DNA of 52,885 nt from Actinocrinis puniceicyclus (GTDB lineage: Bacteria > Actinomycetota > Actinomycetes > Streptomycetales > Catenulisporaceae): positions 1 through 52,885 of the forward strand of contig NZ_JAGSXH010000001.1 in assembly GCF_018283645.1 (NCBI RefSeq), given 5' to 3'. Shown here one piece after another: positions 2,943 to 12,236 of this stretch. The notes under the pieces were generated by a model. The model searched no databases, was not told where the DNA came from, and worked only from the letters and a program-made list of their open reading frames with translations. A program made the position numbers and the translations under genes. Every line of letters begins with the position of its first letter. The stretch's first letter is position 1.

Positions 2943-3923
2943 ATGCGCGCGGTGATGGTCGAGCGATACGGCGGGCCCGAGGTCCTCAAGCCGACCGAGC
3001 TGCCCGAGCCGCAACCGCGGCCGGGCCAGGTTTCGATCGAGGTGGCGTACGCGGGAATCAACTACGCGGACGTCATGGCGCGCCGGGACGGCTACCAGGT
3101 CTCGGCGCTGCCGTTCGTGCCAGGACTGGAGCTCTCCGGCACGGTGCGCGCCCTCGGGTCCGGTGCGACAGGGTTCCGGCTCGGTCAGCCGGTGGCCGCG
3201 TTCGTCCCCTCCGGCGGATACGCGCAAGTCGCGGTCGCCGGCCTCGCGAGCGTGTACCCGCTGCCGGAGGGCACCGATCTGCGCGAGGCGGCGACCTGGC
3301 TCGCGGTGCTGCCGACCGCGTACGCGCTGCTGCACCGGATCGGCCGCCTCGCCGCCGGTGAGACAGTGCTCGTACACAGCGCGGCCGGCGGTGTCGGCAC
3401 CGCGATCGGGCAACTGGCGCGCGCCGCCGGGGCCGCGGCCGTCTACGGCGTCGTGTCCTCGCCCCGGAAGGTGGCCTTCGCGCTCCGCTTCGGCTACGAC
3501 CGGGTGTTCGTCGGGGACCGGTACGCCGCGGCGCTTGCGGAGGCGACCGGCGGACGCGGCGTCGACCTGATCCTCGACCCGGTCGGCGGCGAGACGCTGC
3601 GCACCGGGCTGTCGCTGCTGGCCCGCTTCGGCCGGCTCGTCTCCTACGGCAACGCGGGCGCGCAGGAGCCGTGGCGGGCCGGGCCCGGCGAACTGTACCC
3701 GCGCGCGCTGAGCGTGTCAGGGTTCTCGCTGCGCGCGATCAGCCGGGAGGAACCGGCGCTGCTGCGGCAGATCACCGAGAGCGCGATCCGGGCGGCGCGC
3801 GCCGCGGCCGTCCAGACCCCGATCACCGGCGAATACGCGCTCGAAGAGGTCGCCGAGGCGCACCGGATGCTCGAATCGCGGGCGACGACGGGCAAGCTCG
3901 TCGCGCGTGTCGCAGAGCACTGA
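2943..3923 (+). CDS. Zinc-independent quinone oxidoreductase (MDR superfamily)
   Basis: 326-residue medium-chain dehydrogenase/reductase predicted to reduce quinones or other enones with NADPH. The N-terminal GroES-like domain has the family's FVPGLELSG motif. The Rossmann domain has AAGGVGTAIGQLA as its nucleotide-binding glycine motif near residue 148, followed by LDPVGG. The structural and catalytic zinc ligands of alcohol dehydrogenases are absent, as in QOR-type proteins. The ATG follows a purine-rich GGAGAAGGAGAGG stretch. It converges on the dehydratase gene with a gap of about 26 bases. The physiological substrate cannot be told. Confidence 0.92.
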   Translation: MRAVMVERYGGPEVLKPTELPEPQPRPGQVSIEVAYAGINYADVMARRDGYQVSALPFVPGLELSGTVRALGSGATGFRLGQPVAAFVPSGGYAQVAVAGLASVYPLPEGTDLREAATWLAVLPTAYALLHRIGRLAAGETVLVHSAAGGVGTAIGQLARAAGAAAVYGVVSSPRKVAFALRFGYDRVFVGDRYAAALAEATGGRGVDLILDPVGGETLRTGLSLLARFGRLVSYGNAGAQEPWRAGPGELYPRALSVSGFSLRAISREEPALLRQITESAIRAARAAAVQTPITGEYALEEVAEAHRMLESRATTGKLVARVAEH

Positions 3924-4945: not shown

Positions 4946-5062
4946 GCCGTTCATCCTCTTGAGCGCCGTGAGCGGTTGTCCACCGGTTTCGCGCAGCCCT
5001 GGGCAGCCCTGGGACCGCTTTCGCGCGACCTGCGGACCATCCTTGACACGGCCGGGACATTG

Positions 5063-5080
5063 CATAACCATTTGGTTATG
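5063..5080. promoter_or_regulatory. Perfect palindrome over the ArsR-gene start (probable autoregulatory operator)
   Basis: CATAACCA-TT-TGGTTATG is a perfect 8-base inverted repeat with a two-base centre. Its right arm ends in the ATG of the ArsR-type gene. TTGACA lies at 5043-5048, so the palindrome overlaps the expected -10 region, and the transcript may be leaderless. This geometry is typical of a self-repressing ArsR regulator. Confidence 0.7.
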
Positions 5081-5434
5081 GAAACGGCGACCCTCTCCGA
5101 GGTGGAGCTCGACGCGGCGTTCACCGCGCTGGCCGATCCGACCCGCCGGGCGATCATCTCCCGGCTGGCTCGGGGGGAGGCCGGGGTGCTGGAGCTGACC
5201 GAGCGGTTCCCGATGAGCCAGCCGGCGATCTCGAAGCACCTGAAGGTGCTGGAGGCGGCCGGGCTGATCTCGCGGCGCAGGCAGGCGCAGCGCCGCCCGT
5301 GCCGGCTCGAACCGCTGCGGCTCAAGCAGCTGGCCGACTGGGTCGGCTCGTACCGCGAGTTCTGGGAGGCCGGTTTCCAGCGCCTCGACGATTACCTGGA
5401 CGATCTGCAACAACAGGAGGAACAACCGCGATGA
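5078..5434 (+). CDS. ArsR-family winged-helix repressor
   Basis: 118 residues. ALADPTRRAIISRLARGE and the recognition helix region MSQPAISKHLKVLEAAGLI are classic ArsR/SmtB features of the subgroup paired with SRPBCC proteins; no metal-binding cysteine cluster is seen. The ATG at 5078 sits inside a perfect palindrome, and no ribosome site precedes it, suggesting leaderless translation. The stop overlaps the next start by ATGA, so the regulator and the SRPBCC protein are translationally coupled. It probably represses its own operon. The ligand is unknown. Confidence 0.9.
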   Translation: METATLSEVELDAAFTALADPTRRAIISRLARGEAGVLELTERFPMSQPAISKHLKVLEAAGLISRRRQAQRRPCRLEPLRLKQLADWVGSYREFWEAGFQRLDDYLDDLQQQEEQPR

Positions 5435-5961
5435 ACGCTCAGCACACGGCGCCACAAACCGCGACGCACACGGCGAGCGCGCACCCCGCCCTCGAACTCG
5501 AGATCCCGCCGGGCCTGCCGGTGATCAACTACCGGCGCTTCGTCAAGGCCCCGCCCGACCTCGTCTTCACCGCCTTCACCGATCCGCGGCACCTGCGCAA
5601 CTGGTGGGGCCCGCGGCGGATGGAGCTGGTGGTGTGCGAGGTCGATCTTCGCGTCGGCGGCGGCTACCGGTTCGTCTCGCGCGCCCCGGACGGACAGGAG
5701 TTCGGTTTCCACGGCGAGTACCGCGAGATCGACCGGCCCAACCGACTGGTGAACACTTTCGTGTTCGAAGGCGCCCCGGACCACTACGCCGTGGACACGG
5801 CGGTGTTCGAACGGGTCGAGGGCGGCACGCTGATCCGCGGCGAATCGGTGCACGACAGCGTCGAGGCGCGCGACGCACACGTGGCCGCCGGCATGGAGCC
5901 GGGCATGATCGAGACCATGGATCGACTCGACGACCTCGTCGCCGCCGCGCAGACGGTATAG
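5431..5961 (+). CDS. SRPBCC (AHSA1-like) protein
   Basis: 176 residues. An AHSA1/START-like ligand-binding fold is indicated by FVKAPPDLVFTAFTDP, RNWWGP and the GGGYRF-to-FHGEYREI segment, the standard order in this family. The start at 5431 is preceded by AGGAGG ten bases upstream and overlaps the ArsR stop by ATGA. About 30 residues of Thr/Ala-rich extension precede the domain. Proteins of this type paired with ArsR regulators are thought to bind hydrophobic ligands; the ligand here is not known. The same two domains occur fused in one gene at 43734-44525. Confidence 0.88.
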   Translation: MNAQHTAPQTATHTASAHPALELEIPPGLPVINYRRFVKAPPDLVFTAFTDPRHLRNWWGPRRMELVVCEVDLRVGGGYRFVSRAPDGQEFGFHGEYREIDRPNRLVNTFVFEGAPDHYAVDTAVFERVEGGTLIRGESVHDSVEARDAHVAAGMEPGMIETMDRLDDLVAAAQTV

Positions 5962-6090
5962 CACCGGCCCAGGCCAGACCGGGCACGGGTTTCCGCATCG
6001 TCACCGCGGCCGCCACCGCCTCGGTGCATGGCGCCGGGAACGCGGGGCAATAGACGGCGCCCGATCCCGCGATCCCTGACTTGGCGGACG

Positions 6091-7380
6091 ATGAGTGAAT
6101 CACCGACGGAACGTCAAGGGCCGGTTTCGGTAGAGCCGGCCGCGGTTTCGGTAGAGCCGGACATACGGCGGGATCCTCCGGCCGCTGAGCGCTCCCGCCG
6201 TCCTCGCCTGCATCCCCTTGACGTGTTCGCGCTGGCGCTGCTGGTCGCGGGCGCGCTGTGCGTGGCCACCGGCGCCCTCTCCCGGCCCGACACCTCGGCG
6301 ATCCTGCACCGGATCCTGCCGCTGCTGCTGTTCCTCGGCACGGTGATCATCCTGGCCGAGCTGACCGGCCGAGCGCAGACCTTCGACGTGGTCGCCACCC
6401 GGCTGGCGATCGCCGGGCGCGGGCGCTACGGCCTGCTGTTCGCGCTGTGCGTGCTGATGGCCGTGGTCACCACGGTGGGCCTGAACCTGGACACCACCGC
6501 CGTGCTGCTGACCCCGATCATGCTGGCGATGGCGGCGCGGGTCGGGCTGCCGCTGCTGCCGCTGGCGATGACCACGGTGCTGCTGGCGAACACCGCGAGC
6601 CTGCTGCTGCCGGTCGGGAACCTGACGAACCTGCTGGCCGCGGACCGGGTCACGCTCAACGCGGTGGATTTCGCGGCGCGGATGGCCACCCCCGAGGCCG
6701 CGAGTGTCGCGGTGACCATGGCGGTGCTCTGGTTCGGGTACTGGAGCCGGTCCAGGCGCGGCGGGGCGGCGCGCTACGAACTGCCCGAACCGTTCGCGCC
6801 GCGCGACCGGGTGCTGTGCGTGGTCGCCGGGGCGGCGTGCATGCTGTTCGTCGGCGCGATCCTGCTGGGCGCGCCGCTCGGCGCCGCCTCCGCCGCGGCC
6901 GCGGCCGTCACGGTCGCGGCCTTCGCGCTGCGCGAGCGCGCGGCGCTGCGCTGGTCGCTGCTGCCGTGGCGGCTGCTGGCCACCGTCACCGGGATGTTCC
7001 TGGTGGTGCAGACGATCACGGTGCACGGCCTCGGCTCGCTGGTCGCGCACCTGGTCGGCGCATCGAACTCGTTTCCGGGCCAGATGCGCGCCGCCGGCAC
7101 CGGGGCGCTGCTGGCGAACCTCGTCAACAACCTGCCAGCCTACGTCGCGGGCGAGAGCGCGGTGCCGGCGGCGAACCACGGTCAGTTGCTCGCGTTGCTG
7201 ATCGGGGTGAACGTCGGCCCGGTGATCACCGCCTGGGCCTCGCTGGCGACGCTGCTCTGGTACGAGCGATGCGCCGCGTTCGGGCTGCGCATCCCGAAGC
7301 GGCGCACGCTGGTCAACGGCGTGATCCTCGCGGTCCTCGGCGTGTTCGCGGCCACCGCCGCGCTGGCCGTGACCGGGTGA
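6091..7380 (+). CDS. ArsB/NhaD (SLC13-like) ion transporter permease
   Basis: 429 residues with about ten hydrophobic helices. The motif-rich halves NLDTTAVLLTPI and NLVNNLPAY are the inverted-repeat re-entrant loops of the arsenite/Na+:H+ antiporter superfamily. The ATG at 6091 is preferred over an upstream in-frame ATG because the cytosolic leader is then of normal length; no strong ribosome site is seen. The N-terminus carries a 7-residue duplication (VSVEP units) from an 18-base direct repeat at 6122-6139 and 6143-6160. The transported ion is unresolved: the nearby ArsR gene is of the SRPBCC type, not an arsenic sensor. It converges on the F420 enzyme, 10 bases apart. Confidence 0.85.
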   Translation: MSESPTERQGPVSVEPAAVSVEPDIRRDPPAAERSRRPRLHPLDVFALALLVAGALCVATGALSRPDTSAILHRILPLLLFLGTVIILAELTGRAQTFDVVATRLAIAGRGRYGLLFALCVLMAVVTTVGLNLDTTAVLLTPIMLAMAARVGLPLLPLAMTTVLLANTASLLLPVGNLTNLLAADRVTLNAVDFAARMATPEAASVAVTMAVLWFGYWSRSRRGGAARYELPEPFAPRDRVLCVVAGAACMLFVGAILLGAPLGAASAAAAAVTVAAFALRERAALRWSLLPWRLLATVTGMFLVVQTITVHGLGSLVAHLVGASNSFPGQMRAAGTGALLANLVNNLPAYVAGESAVPAANHGQLLALLIGVNVGPVITAWASLATLLWYERCAAFGLRIPKRRTLVNGVILAVLGVFAATAALAVTG

Positions 7381-8494: not shown

Positions 8495-9259
8495 TCAAGG
8501 CTGCGGAATCGTGCGCTGCCCGACGACTCGAAGCTGTCGAGGCAGCCCGAGATCCGAGAGATACGAGATGCGCGCGTTGATCGCGGCTGCGAAATGCCGC
8601 CAGTCCAGCGAGTCGACAATCTCGTTCGGCGATGGATCTCGCGGCGAAGAGGTGATGTAACACGCTGCGTCATATAGGCCCTCAGCTATAAGGCGCTGAC
8701 AGAAGATCGCGAATCTCTGCTGATACGACTTCCCGTGCCAGATTTCTTCGACGGGGAACGCGCCGTCTCCGTTGCGCACCGGCGTGCGGGAGCCTTCAGC
8801 GTCCTGCATTATGAAGAAGTAGCCAAGCCACGGCCTCTCGCCTGGGTACAGCTCGGCGAGCGCGGCGCGTCGAATGTCTACGGCACTGCCGAGAGCTTCC
8901 TCGACCCGGTTGTTGTAGTTGTTGCCGAACGATGGGCCGCCAAGTGCCTTTAGTTCGAAGGCTGCGACGAGGGTGTCGCCGTGCACGACGACTACGTCCC
9001 ACTGCTTCTGAGGGCGGTAATAGCCTGGCAGCTCGAGACGCTGCTGCGTAGTGACCCGGATGTCCTCGGCCGGGTAGCCCGCTTCCAGGAAGAACTTGGC
9101 AAGCAATGCCGCGATCGCGTCGAAGTGCTTGCCGGCGCGCACGGCGGCGGCTGTTCCCGCGGCGACGACATCTTTGATCGCTGAGAGTTGTTGCTGTGTC
9201 TCCTTCACTCTCCAGTACGCTGCGACCGCGTTTTCGAAGTCCTCTCGGGTGACTGTCAC
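8495..9259 (-). CDS. Type II restriction endonuclease, PaeR7I/XhoI family
   Basis: 254 residues. The family hallmark GPSFGNNYNNRVEEA (about 108-122) and the catalytic core with Asp88 and ELK at 102-104, a PD-(D/E)xK arrangement, identify an XhoI/PaeR7I-type enzyme. Known members cleave CTCGAG, so that specificity is inferred. The GTG at 9259 has AGGGG about seven bases upstream. It starts 12 bases after the stop of the methyltransferase gene, so protection is translated first. G+C and codon use are visibly lower than in flanking genes, which fits horizontal acquisition. Confidence 0.93.
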   Translation of the reverse strand: MTVTREDFENAVAAYWRVKETQQQLSAIKDVVAAGTAAAVRAGKHFDAIAALLAKFFLEAGYPAEDIRVTTQQRLELPGYYRPQKQWDVVVVHGDTLVAAFELKALGGPSFGNNYNNRVEEALGSAVDIRRAALAELYPGERPWLGYFFIMQDAEGSRTPVRNGDGAFPVEEIWHGKSYQQRFAIFCQRLIAEGLYDAACYITSSPRDPSPNEIVDSLDWRHFAAAINARISYLSDLGLPRQLRVVGQRTIPQP

Positions 9260-9271
9260 TCGTCGCCCCTT

Positions 9272-10948
9272 CTAGTCCGGTAGTTCGTCGAGTCCGTAGA
9301 CGCGTAGCGCTGCCTCAGTTGCCGCCTTCACATCGCGGCGGTCGAACGCGTCCGCGAGGGCGGCGCGGTCCCGTTCGTCAAGCTGCCCGGGATCGGGCAC
9401 GCGGATTCTGCGCAGGTACTGAGCTTGGAAACGTAGCGTCCCGCCTCGCATCTTCACCGCGTAGGCGTCGATGAACGCTTCCGCCACGCCGGAGAGCAGC
9501 AGGCCGCCGAGCACACGCAGATCCCAGGTCCGCGAGGTGATGTAGTACAGGTTGTGATGCGGGTAGAAACCGCCCTCGTCCAGGACCGGGTGAATTGTCA
9601 GCTTCATGTCCGGAAACAGAAGCTTCGCGCGGCCCGTGAGCCGATGATTGACCTTGTCAATGGTTTTGTACCACCGGTCAGGCTGCTTGCCCGCGACATA
9701 GCGCTTGGACAGCGCGGGCCGGTGTCGTTCGAAGTACTCGGCAAGCCGTGGATGGTCGCGCAGGTCGACAAGCTGACCGTCGCAGTCCCAAGGGTTGACG
9801 AGGTAGGCGCCCTGCCAACGCAGGTAGCCGCTGAGCGTGTCTTGAACCATTGCCAACGGCAGCAGGCGATCCGTCTCGACGAGATCGCCATCACGGGTGA
9901 TGAAGATCCCGTCCGCGCCCGTGGCGACACCGATGCCGACTTGCGTGCCGGTCGTCTCGTCCTCGAGCAGACGAAAACGGTCGCTGAGGTCTTCGAGCAT
10001 CGCCAGACGGGCCGGAGAGGCGGCGGGCCAGGAGTCCTCGCCGGGAAACCAGTGCGGCAGGCGCACTGCGTGGAATGCGCTTGCTTCGATGCGTTCCTGC
10101 GCGCTTTCCAGCGTCCAGGCCACCAGGCGCTTCGCGTCGTCAGAGCCGAAAGCGCCGCTCGCGGTGGCAGCTACCGCAGTGCCCTGCACGGATTTGCTGA
10201 TGATCGTGATTGCTGGATACGCCGACACCTGCTCGTGAAACGCGTCGACGCTGTGCATGCTGAGCACGAGGTCGACGCTGTAGCGGCGGGTGACCAGCCG
10301 GCGCAGTCCGCGCCCGTACTGGTTACGCATCCACCGATCAGCGCAGATGAACCCGAGCCGGCCGTTTGGCTTGAGAGCGGCCAAACCGACCTCGTAGAAG
10401 CCGACGTACACGTCGGCTCTGCCCTCCATCAAGACGCAGGAGCGCCGATAGGCGGCCATGCGTGCGACGGGCACATCTTCCAGGCGGATATAGGGCGGAT
10501 TGCCGACGATGAAGTCAGCCGGTTTCAGGTCGCGGCCCTGCAACAGGTAGTCGCCTTGACGGACCCACGCCCGTACAAGCTTGCTGACATCGTCCGGGTT
10601 CCAACCGTCCCGGGTGAGCACTTCGGCGACCGCGTCTCGGCTCCGCGTGACGTTGTGGTCAAGCAGTTCCAGCGCTTCAACGGCCGATTGAGCGTCGAGT
10701 AGAGGTCTGTGGTGCTTGCGACACGACGCGCTCAGGCGCTCGGCGATGGGGCCGAGAAAAGCCCCGCCGCCGCAGGCGGGCTCGACGATCCGCATCGCGG
10801 CCAGGTCGCGCTCGACCGTGTAGCCGACGAAATCGAGAATGGTCTCGACCACCCACCGGCGCGTGAAGACCTCGCCGTGCTCGACCGCATCCAGCATAGA
10901 GGGTGGCACCGCAAGATCATCGATCGCGAAGAGGGCGTCACCGTGCAC
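9272..10948 (-). CDS. N6-adenine DNA methyltransferase of a type II R-M system (PaeR7I-type)
   Basis: 558 residues. Motif I, VEPACGGGAF (about 56-64), binds S-adenosylmethionine, and IVGNPPY (147-153) is motif IV of N6-adenine methylases of the Eco57I/TaqI type. The C-terminal part should be the target-recognition region. It is followed by the cognate endonuclease gene after 12 bases. The GTG at 10948 is the only start before an in-frame TAG; no clear ribosome site is visible. It probably methylates the adenine of CTCGAG. Lower G+C than the surroundings suggests acquisition. Confidence 0.93.
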   Translation of the reverse strand: MHGDALFAIDDLAVPPSMLDAVEHGEVFTRRWVVETILDFVGYTVERDLAAMRIVEPACGGGAFLGPIAERLSASCRKHHRPLLDAQSAVEALELLDHNVTRSRDAVAEVLTRDGWNPDDVSKLVRAWVRQGDYLLQGRDLKPADFIVGNPPYIRLEDVPVARMAAYRRSCVLMEGRADVYVGFYEVGLAALKPNGRLGFICADRWMRNQYGRGLRRLVTRRYSVDLVLSMHSVDAFHEQVSAYPAITIISKSVQGTAVAATASGAFGSDDAKRLVAWTLESAQERIEASAFHAVRLPHWFPGEDSWPAASPARLAMLEDLSDRFRLLEDETTGTQVGIGVATGADGIFITRDGDLVETDRLLPLAMVQDTLSGYLRWQGAYLVNPWDCDGQLVDLRDHPRLAEYFERHRPALSKRYVAGKQPDRWYKTIDKVNHRLTGRAKLLFPDMKLTIHPVLDEGGFYPHHNLYYITSRTWDLRVLGGLLLSGVAEAFIDAYAVKMRGGTLRFQAQYLRRIRVPDPGQLDERDRAALADAFDRRDVKAATEAALRVYGLDELPD

Positions 10949-11166
10949 GCAGTGACCCTACAACCACGCCACCCACAGCCCGGTGAGTGCTGGAGTGATG
11001 CTCCGTCCGCTCTGCCGAAATGATCAGGCGGCGGCGGAAACCGACGCCGCCATCTCCTCTGGCGCTACTCGATCACCTGGACCAGGCCGCGTCCGTGACC
11101 GGCCGACCCTCGCCGCGCGACGCGGGAACCGCGGCGCGTGAGCCGACTCGGGCGCAACGCCTGTAA

Positions 11167-11189
11167 GGACTGGAATCAGAAGAGGTCTC
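11167..11189 (+). repeat. Left inverted end of RCC1 cassette
   Basis: GGACTGGAATCAG (11167-11179) followed after two bases by GAGGTCTC (11182-11189). Both blocks recur in reverse complement and same order at 12152-12175. TAA lies immediately outside (11164-11166). The RCC1 stop codon lies six bases inside this end. Confidence 0.75.
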
Positions 11190-11194
11190 CGGGC

Positions 11195-12091
11195 TCACGG
11201 ATGACGGTGTGTCAGTTCACGTTGGTGCGGCCGGGAGGCCTGGGGAAGCTGGACTCCGGACCAGGCATCGACCCCGCACTGTGTGTCGGCGTTGTTCCCT
11301 GCGGCCACGACTGTGCCATTGGCGCGCAGGCCAAGGGTGTGCGTTGAACCGGCCGCCACGGCGACAATGTCGTGCCAATCGCCGACTTTGCACTGTCCGT
11401 AGCTGTTGTCTCCCGCCGCGAGGACCCTTCCGGACGCGGTGACCCCGATGGTGTGGTAACTGCCCGCGCTGAGCGCCACCACGTCTTCCCACTCGTCGAT
11501 CTCGCACGCCCCGGTTGTCCGGTCTCCGGTCGCGACGGCCCGTCCGTCGTGCCTGAGGCCGACGGTGTGGAGATACCCGGCCGCAATGGCGGTGAGGTCG
11601 CACCATTCCTCAACGGCACACTGCCGTCGTCGGTTGGTCCCCGCAGCCAGTGCTGAACCGTCCGACCGGACACCTACCGAGTGCCAGTCGCCACATGAGA
11701 GGGCGACCATCTCGCGCCAGGACTGCACGTCGCACTGTCCTTCTGAACTCCGGCCGACTGCCAGCACGCGGCCATTCGCGAGTAGCCCGAGCGTGCGGCG
11801 CCAGCCCGCGGCCACCGCCGTGACTCCTCGCCATCCGGCGACATCACACTGCCCGTCGCCGTTCCAGCCCGTTGCCAGCACGGTGCCGTCCGACCGGAGT
11901 CCGACCGTGTGGGACCTTCCGGTGTTCGTCGCGGTGTGGACATTGCCGGCTACGACCGAGACGATGTCTTCCCATCGCTCGACACGACATTCAGCGGCTG
12001 TGCTATTGCCTGTGGCGAGAACGGTTCCGTCCCAGCGCCGCCCGACCGAATGACGCCTTCCAGCGGCCAGCGCCGACGGGTTAGCGAGCAT
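11195..12091 (-). CDS. RCC1-like seven-repeat beta-propeller protein
   Basis: 298 residues made almost wholly of seven repeats of about 38-45 residues. Each contains H-(S/T)-(V/I/L)-G, then DGxVLAxG, a QC-V core and a W-x-(D/G)-V/I-x-AxxAG ending, the RCC1/BLIP-II-type blade pattern, so a closed seven-bladed propeller is expected. Most repeats keep a Cys in the same place. No signal peptide is seen, so it is probably cytoplasmic. The ATG at 12091 follows GAGGCAGG. The gene fills a 1,009-bp unit with inverted ends and lies beside the R-M genes. Its function is unknown; propellers of this type usually bind proteins. Confidence 0.85.
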   Translation of the reverse strand: MLANPSALAAGRRHSVGRRWDGTVLATGNSTAAECRVERWEDIVSVVAGNVHTATNTGRSHTVGLRSDGTVLATGWNGDGQCDVAGWRGVTAVAAGWRRTLGLLANGRVLAVGRSSEGQCDVQSWREMVALSCGDWHSVGVRSDGSALAAGTNRRRQCAVEEWCDLTAIAAGYLHTVGLRHDGRAVATGDRTTGACEIDEWEDVVALSAGSYHTIGVTASGRVLAAGDNSYGQCKVGDWHDIVAVAAGSTHTLGLRANGTVVAAGNNADTQCGVDAWSGVQLPQASRPHQRELTHRHP

Positions 12092-12151
12092 TCTGCCTGC
12101 CTCGAGTCGACCGACGCCCGGGACAGATCCAGCATGCAGACCGCCGCCCCA

Positions 12152-12175
12152 GAGACCTCATCCTGATTCCAGTCC
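12152..12175 (-). repeat. Right inverted end of RCC1 cassette
   Basis: GAGACCTC (12152-12159) and CTGATTCCAGTCC (12163-12175) are the reverse complement of the left end, with one extra base between blocks. TAA follows at 12176-12178, matching the TAA outside the left end. Confidence 0.75.
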
Positions 12176-12236
12176 TAAGCCACGCATATCAGAACACAGT
12201 CAGACAACCGCTTGCCACACCGGCGTCGAGCGGGCG

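Follow-up and report, generated by a model that had tools for sequence, protein, structure and literature searches.

IS elements with passenger genes are described under the concept of the 'transporter IS' (tIS) (PMC3129680). In mobile insertion cassettes (MICs), IS ends enclose at least one unrelated gene but no transposase, and the transposase is supplied in trans (PMC3129680, PMC6542083). Among the IS5 elements of actinobacteria, ISLxx6 has been published with a single ORF and an insertion site of 3 nucleotides (PMC2516522). The unit described here shares with the MIC231 type of Bacillus cereus the IS ends, the lack of a transposase and the unrelated gene; it differs in its IS5-family ends, its RCC1-like cargo and the visible descent from a parent with a transposase plus a passenger. 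The parent is like a tIS in having its own transposase and one unrelated gene between its ends, but the cargo is a beta-propeller, and the outer end appears to be a duplicated left end, as in a collapsed composite. The parent also shares with the IS5 family (IS1031/IS427-like) the IS5-type DDE transposase, the ends of about 27 bp and the 3-bp TNA-type duplication, but it has two genes instead of one.

The window, that is, the whole stretch of DNA analysed, comprises 52,885 nucleotides from Actinocrinis puniceicyclus (Catenulisporaceae). The unit at 11164-12178 is very probably an IS5-family IS that lost its transposase by internal deletion and has an RCC1-like seven-bladed propeller as the passenger; its features are listed in Table 1. 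A unit of about 1 kb with inverted ends, TAA outside both ends and a single gene had been proposed in an earlier note, and this layout is read directly in the sequence. The terminal 13-mers GGACTGGAATCAG (11167-11179) and CTGATTCCAGTCC (12163-12175) are located directly inside the two TAA triplets. The inverted repeat resumes past a 1-base gap (GAGGTCTC.GGG), with 14 bp at 100% followed by 15 bp at 87%, resulting in imperfect inverted ends of about 27-28 bp. The 13-mer occurs twice in the 6.77-Mb genome, and both occurrences are the unit ends.

Table 1. Features of the RCC1-bearing unit (positions in the window)
Feature	Position	Strand	Basis
Target-site duplication TAA	11164-11166		Sequence
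Outer (right) end: terminal inverted repeat and extension, overlapping the 3' end of the gene	11167-11238	+	
RCC1-like passenger gene, 298 aa, intact, seven-bladed propeller	11195-12091	-	Pfam RCC1_2, AlphaFold2
IS5 transposase scrap, about 48 bp, codes LDLSRASVDSS...	12098-12145	-	87-88% identical to L083 transposase positions
Left IS end (terminal inverted repeat)	12146-12175	-	91% identity to L083 left end
Target-site duplication TAA	12176-12178		Sequence

The comparison drew on 80 loci that encode relatives of the RCC1-like protein. The same gene, 84-92% identical, is present in other actinomycetes as the passenger of an IS5-family element of about 1.9 kb. The order in this parent is left end, DDE transposase, old internal right end, RCC1 gene and outer end. 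At the closest loci, the terminal 13-mer is found as direct copies about 65 bp before the RCC1 start codon and after the stop codon, and the upstream copy comes after the transposase reading frame. An additional 13-mer in inverted orientation lies about 970 bp upstream of the RCC1 start at L083, L084 and L019 and completes the element of about 1.9 kb. L019, from Streptomyces diastatochromogenes NRRL B-1698 (element 5029-6926), was taken as the reference copy of the parent, and both of its genes are open. The L019 transposase is intact (275 aa, PF13340 and PF01609), and that of L083 matches NCBIfam transpos_IS5_3 with 186 bits against a cut-off of 110. The full-length element with the same ends and a transposase, which the earlier note proposed to look for, was thus found in L019, L083 and L084, and nearly full, with transposase and RCC1, in L167. 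The DDE transposase, the ends of about 27 bp and the short target duplication place the parent in the IS5 family, and transposase-only relatives of the same IS exist. What is new about the RCC1-bearing IS5-family element is its cargo, and the kind of mobile element is known; no published RCC1-bearing IS was found in the open-licence literature.

According to the alignment with the parent, the window copy consists of three blocks (element 28-61, 409-456 and 994-1927 in query numbering). Therefore, two internal deletions have removed the transposase except for the scrap of about 48 bp, which also aligns to L019. The copy retains 33 bp of the left end and this scrap, as well as the RCC1 gene and the outer end. 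The earlier statement that no transposase is present holds for the gene, but not for this remnant. Because no transposase gene was left by the internal deletion, the window copy is non-autonomous. L022 is a further copy that has both ends but lacks the transposase. In L171 (249-2508), the RCC1 copy is bounded by both ends, and other DNA, with a fragment from an unrelated DDE endonuclease (PF13546) in it, occupies the place of the transposase part. With IS-type ends, the transposase scrap only and an intact RCC1-like ORF, the unit is, judged from its sequence, functionally a mobile insertion cassette, whose mobilization in trans is putative and read from the footprint only. A MITE (short, non-coding and usually multicopy) was considered and rejected; the unit is coding, 1 kb long and present in one copy in the genome.

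The flanking triplets are TTA/TTA in L019, L083 and L084, and TAA/TAA in the window and in the cousin element described below. The 3-bp duplication is imperfect in L022 (TAA/TGA), L171 (TTA/TGA) and L167 (TTA/TAG). Streptomyces sp. SW4 has two 99%-identical copies at different sites with TTA/TTA around each, and one of them sits within another IS5 transposase gene. In L084 (4600-7290), the RCC1 element is inserted inside another IS5 transposase gene; reading its joined flanks as one uninterrupted transposase was rejected, since a frameshift remains. A nearly full copy lies in genome G193; once the element is removed and its flanks are joined, the resulting sequence matches an orthologous, uninterrupted stretch of genome G462. 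The identity is 84% over the 662-base query and 91% over 164 columns around the junction, and the similarity drops just past the junction, so that the exact insertion base is not fixed by the comparison. An empty site with a single TAA, suggested earlier as a check, was not found for the window copy, as the flank adjoining the element is not conserved in 13 family members; the uninterrupted site of the G193 copy answers this check for a sister. Judging from these footprints only, the element would be cut at the GGACTGG ends and T(T/A)A would be duplicated on insertion. A cognate transposase would have acted in one of two ways, on the parent prior to the deletion or in trans on the derivative once the deletion had occurred. 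The earlier reading as a non-autonomous element with a seven-bladed propeller passenger is borne out by the IS5 ends, the full-length sisters, the uninterrupted site of a sister and a confident seven-blade prediction.

The IS-borne RCC1 genes all fall into one supported group (28 rows, 99/96), which spans Streptomycetaceae, Streptosporangiaceae and the window copy of Catenulisporaceae. Because IS-borne RCC1 genes from several families form one supported group, the tree points to spread of the element across families. The 13-base end together with the RCC1 gene, which the earlier note had proposed to search for, is carried by near relatives. RCC1 relatives without conserved ends, which that note had named as evidence against an element, are confined to more distant homologs and to decayed copies, and the ends are preserved in the near ones. 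Of 392 genomes sampled from the order, 42 match at E 1e-120 or better, many of them by the transposase alone. No other RCC1-bearing IS copy was detected in the 14 Catenulisporaceae genomes searched. No record of the plasmid collection covers 80% of the element (the 15 matches listed correspond to the transposase part only), and the phage collection gave no match to the element.

The outer end suggests how the passenger may have been captured. In the window, 11167-11238 shows 81% identity over 75 columns with the IS left end, as an inverted copy, and the terminal 27 bp or so match the opposite end of the unit. In many copies, the likeness of the outer end to the left end extends over about 75 bp, and bases 28-75 are 67-79% identical. 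For the internal right ends and the right ends of transposase-only relatives, the likeness covers about 27 bp, and the next 48 bases are 21-54% identical; the shuffled control for the 48-base comparison gave a mean of 20/48 and a maximum of 34/48. The simplest account is that a second, inverted IS copy was once present and that only its outer left end has survived, as the outer end of the element. We infer that two inverted IS copies flanked the RCC1 gene and then collapsed to a unit with one transposase. IS copies can exchange their inverted end copies with one another. The outer end may, with lower probability, thus have been acquired by gene conversion or ectopic inversion with the left end of another copy, and the intermediate composite expected from a collapse was not found. 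However, the old internal right end lies straight after the transposase and is followed by the cargo and the second end, as fits the collapse of a composite, and a direct-repeat version with another cargo exists.

This version is the cousin element L127 (2923-6899 of G003:C1), which comes from Catenulisporaceae like the window. Its transposase identity is 90%, its layout is that of the RCC1 parent, and its flanks are TAA/TAA. The cargo is a SUKH/SMI1-KNR4-like gene (196 aa, 3163-3753), whose SUKH/SMI1-KNR4 matches are just under the Pfam cut-offs. The L127 transposase is interrupted by a group II intron with a reverse transcriptase. Since L127 carries a SUKH-like cargo in the same layout, cargo capture probably happened at least twice.

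The RCC1-like gene is the sole ORF between the ends of the unit, and its RCC1_2 repeats are detected by Pfam with an E-value of 1.3e-49. The stop codon usual in relatives is lost in the window gene, so that the gene reaches the unit end, and the reading frame runs on for its last 15 or so codons into the outer end. The earlier observation that the gene ends six bases inside one end is thereby explained. AlphaFold2 predicts a confident seven-bladed propeller (pLDDT 91.5, pTM 0.88); RCC1 repeats and seven blades are supported by Pfam, AlphaFold2 and the fold comparison together. The best fold match of the predicted model is the Streptomyces protein BLIP-II (beta-lactamase inhibitor protein II), which has an RCC1-type seven-bladed fold (TM 0.81-0.83 by target length), followed by UVR8 and eukaryotic RCC1 domains; human RCC1, a nucleotide exchange factor for Ran, matches more weakly. 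Inhibitors of the BLIP-II type are secreted and bind class A beta-lactamase; the RCC1-like protein is 26-28% identical to BLIP-II and has no evident secretion signal. By eye, no signal peptide is present at the N-terminus MLANPSALAAGRRHS, and the protein is therefore probably intracellular. It is most likely an intracellular protein-binding scaffold, with a predicted fold akin to that of the inhibitor BLIP-II.

The dN/dS of the window RCC1 gene is 0.16-0.27 when it is paired with the other copies that are IS-associated or nearest, and the median of the pairwise values among such copies is 0.20, which indicates purifying selection at the sequence level. Part of this signal may stem from selection that acted prior to capture or in the donor genomes. 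Where a sizeable part of the transposase remains in these copies, RCC1 is open except in the two SW4 copies, and the transposase is full-length and open in L019 only. The set was collected by RCC1 similarity, which biases it to good RCC1 genes; broken RCC1 genes were nonetheless recovered in L018, L083, L084 and L089. According to the purifying selection and the intact gene where the transposase is broken, RCC1 probably has a self-contained function that serves the host and is kept by selection. It is improbable that the RCC1 protein is instead an accessory factor of the element, helping or regulating transposition or acting in counter-defence. RCC1 does lie inside the element in full-length copies, and the purifying selection would also fit such a role. 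However, RCC1 stays intact in most copies after truncation or frameshift of the transposase, numerous homologs occur on their own, with neither IS ends nor conserved neighbours, the IS also exists with the transposase only, and the cousin element carries the SUKH-like gene in place of RCC1. PADLOC gave no defence-family match for the RCC1 protein.

The 13-base match emphasized earlier is present, but such a pair alone proves nothing, because chance alone produces many perfect inverted pairs in the GC-rich window, where 4.3 14-mers and 11.9 13-mers are expected; imperfect ends of 28 bp with an equal flanking triplet were obtained in none of 200 simulated windows (0/200). That a chromosomal RCC1 gene fell between fortuitous inverted repeats is hardly credible and is refuted by the sister elements: for all the abundance of 13-14-bp pairs, full IS copies with a transposase carry the identical ends, and a transposase scrap lies inside the unit.

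The window element is the single copy in its own genome. No intact cognate transposase was found in this incomplete draft genome, where the best matches are partial, and the window copy is thus probably stranded. One truncated transposase (G000:C392:30616-30999, 146-aa frame) shares 75% identity with the parent IS transposase and has no matching ends. An XhoI-type restriction endonuclease (PF04555) adjoins an Eco57I-like type II methyltransferase at 8495-10948 of the window. This pair was not found at the corresponding place in the relatives searched by DNA. The link of the unit to the restriction-modification pair, raised in the earlier note, does not hold, as no neighbour is conserved among relatives; the XhoI-like endonuclease and the methyltransferase are neighbours by position only, and the pair was rejected as a part of the unit. 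A search for structured RNA near the unit gave none.

It is conceivable, though rather unlikely, that the IS5 lineage repeatedly captures small genes by composite collapse and that the propeller is an intracellular inhibitor or anti-defence protein spreading among actinomycetes. The preferred reading, an internal-deletion derivative with a host-serving passenger, would mean that a minimal IS has carried a eukaryote-like repeat protein from one actinomycete family to another. The series from the transposase-only IS to the IS with cargo and to the transposase-less cassette would show how passenger-bearing IS form and decay, and the retained, conserved propeller may offer a handle on what bacterial RCC1-like proteins do.
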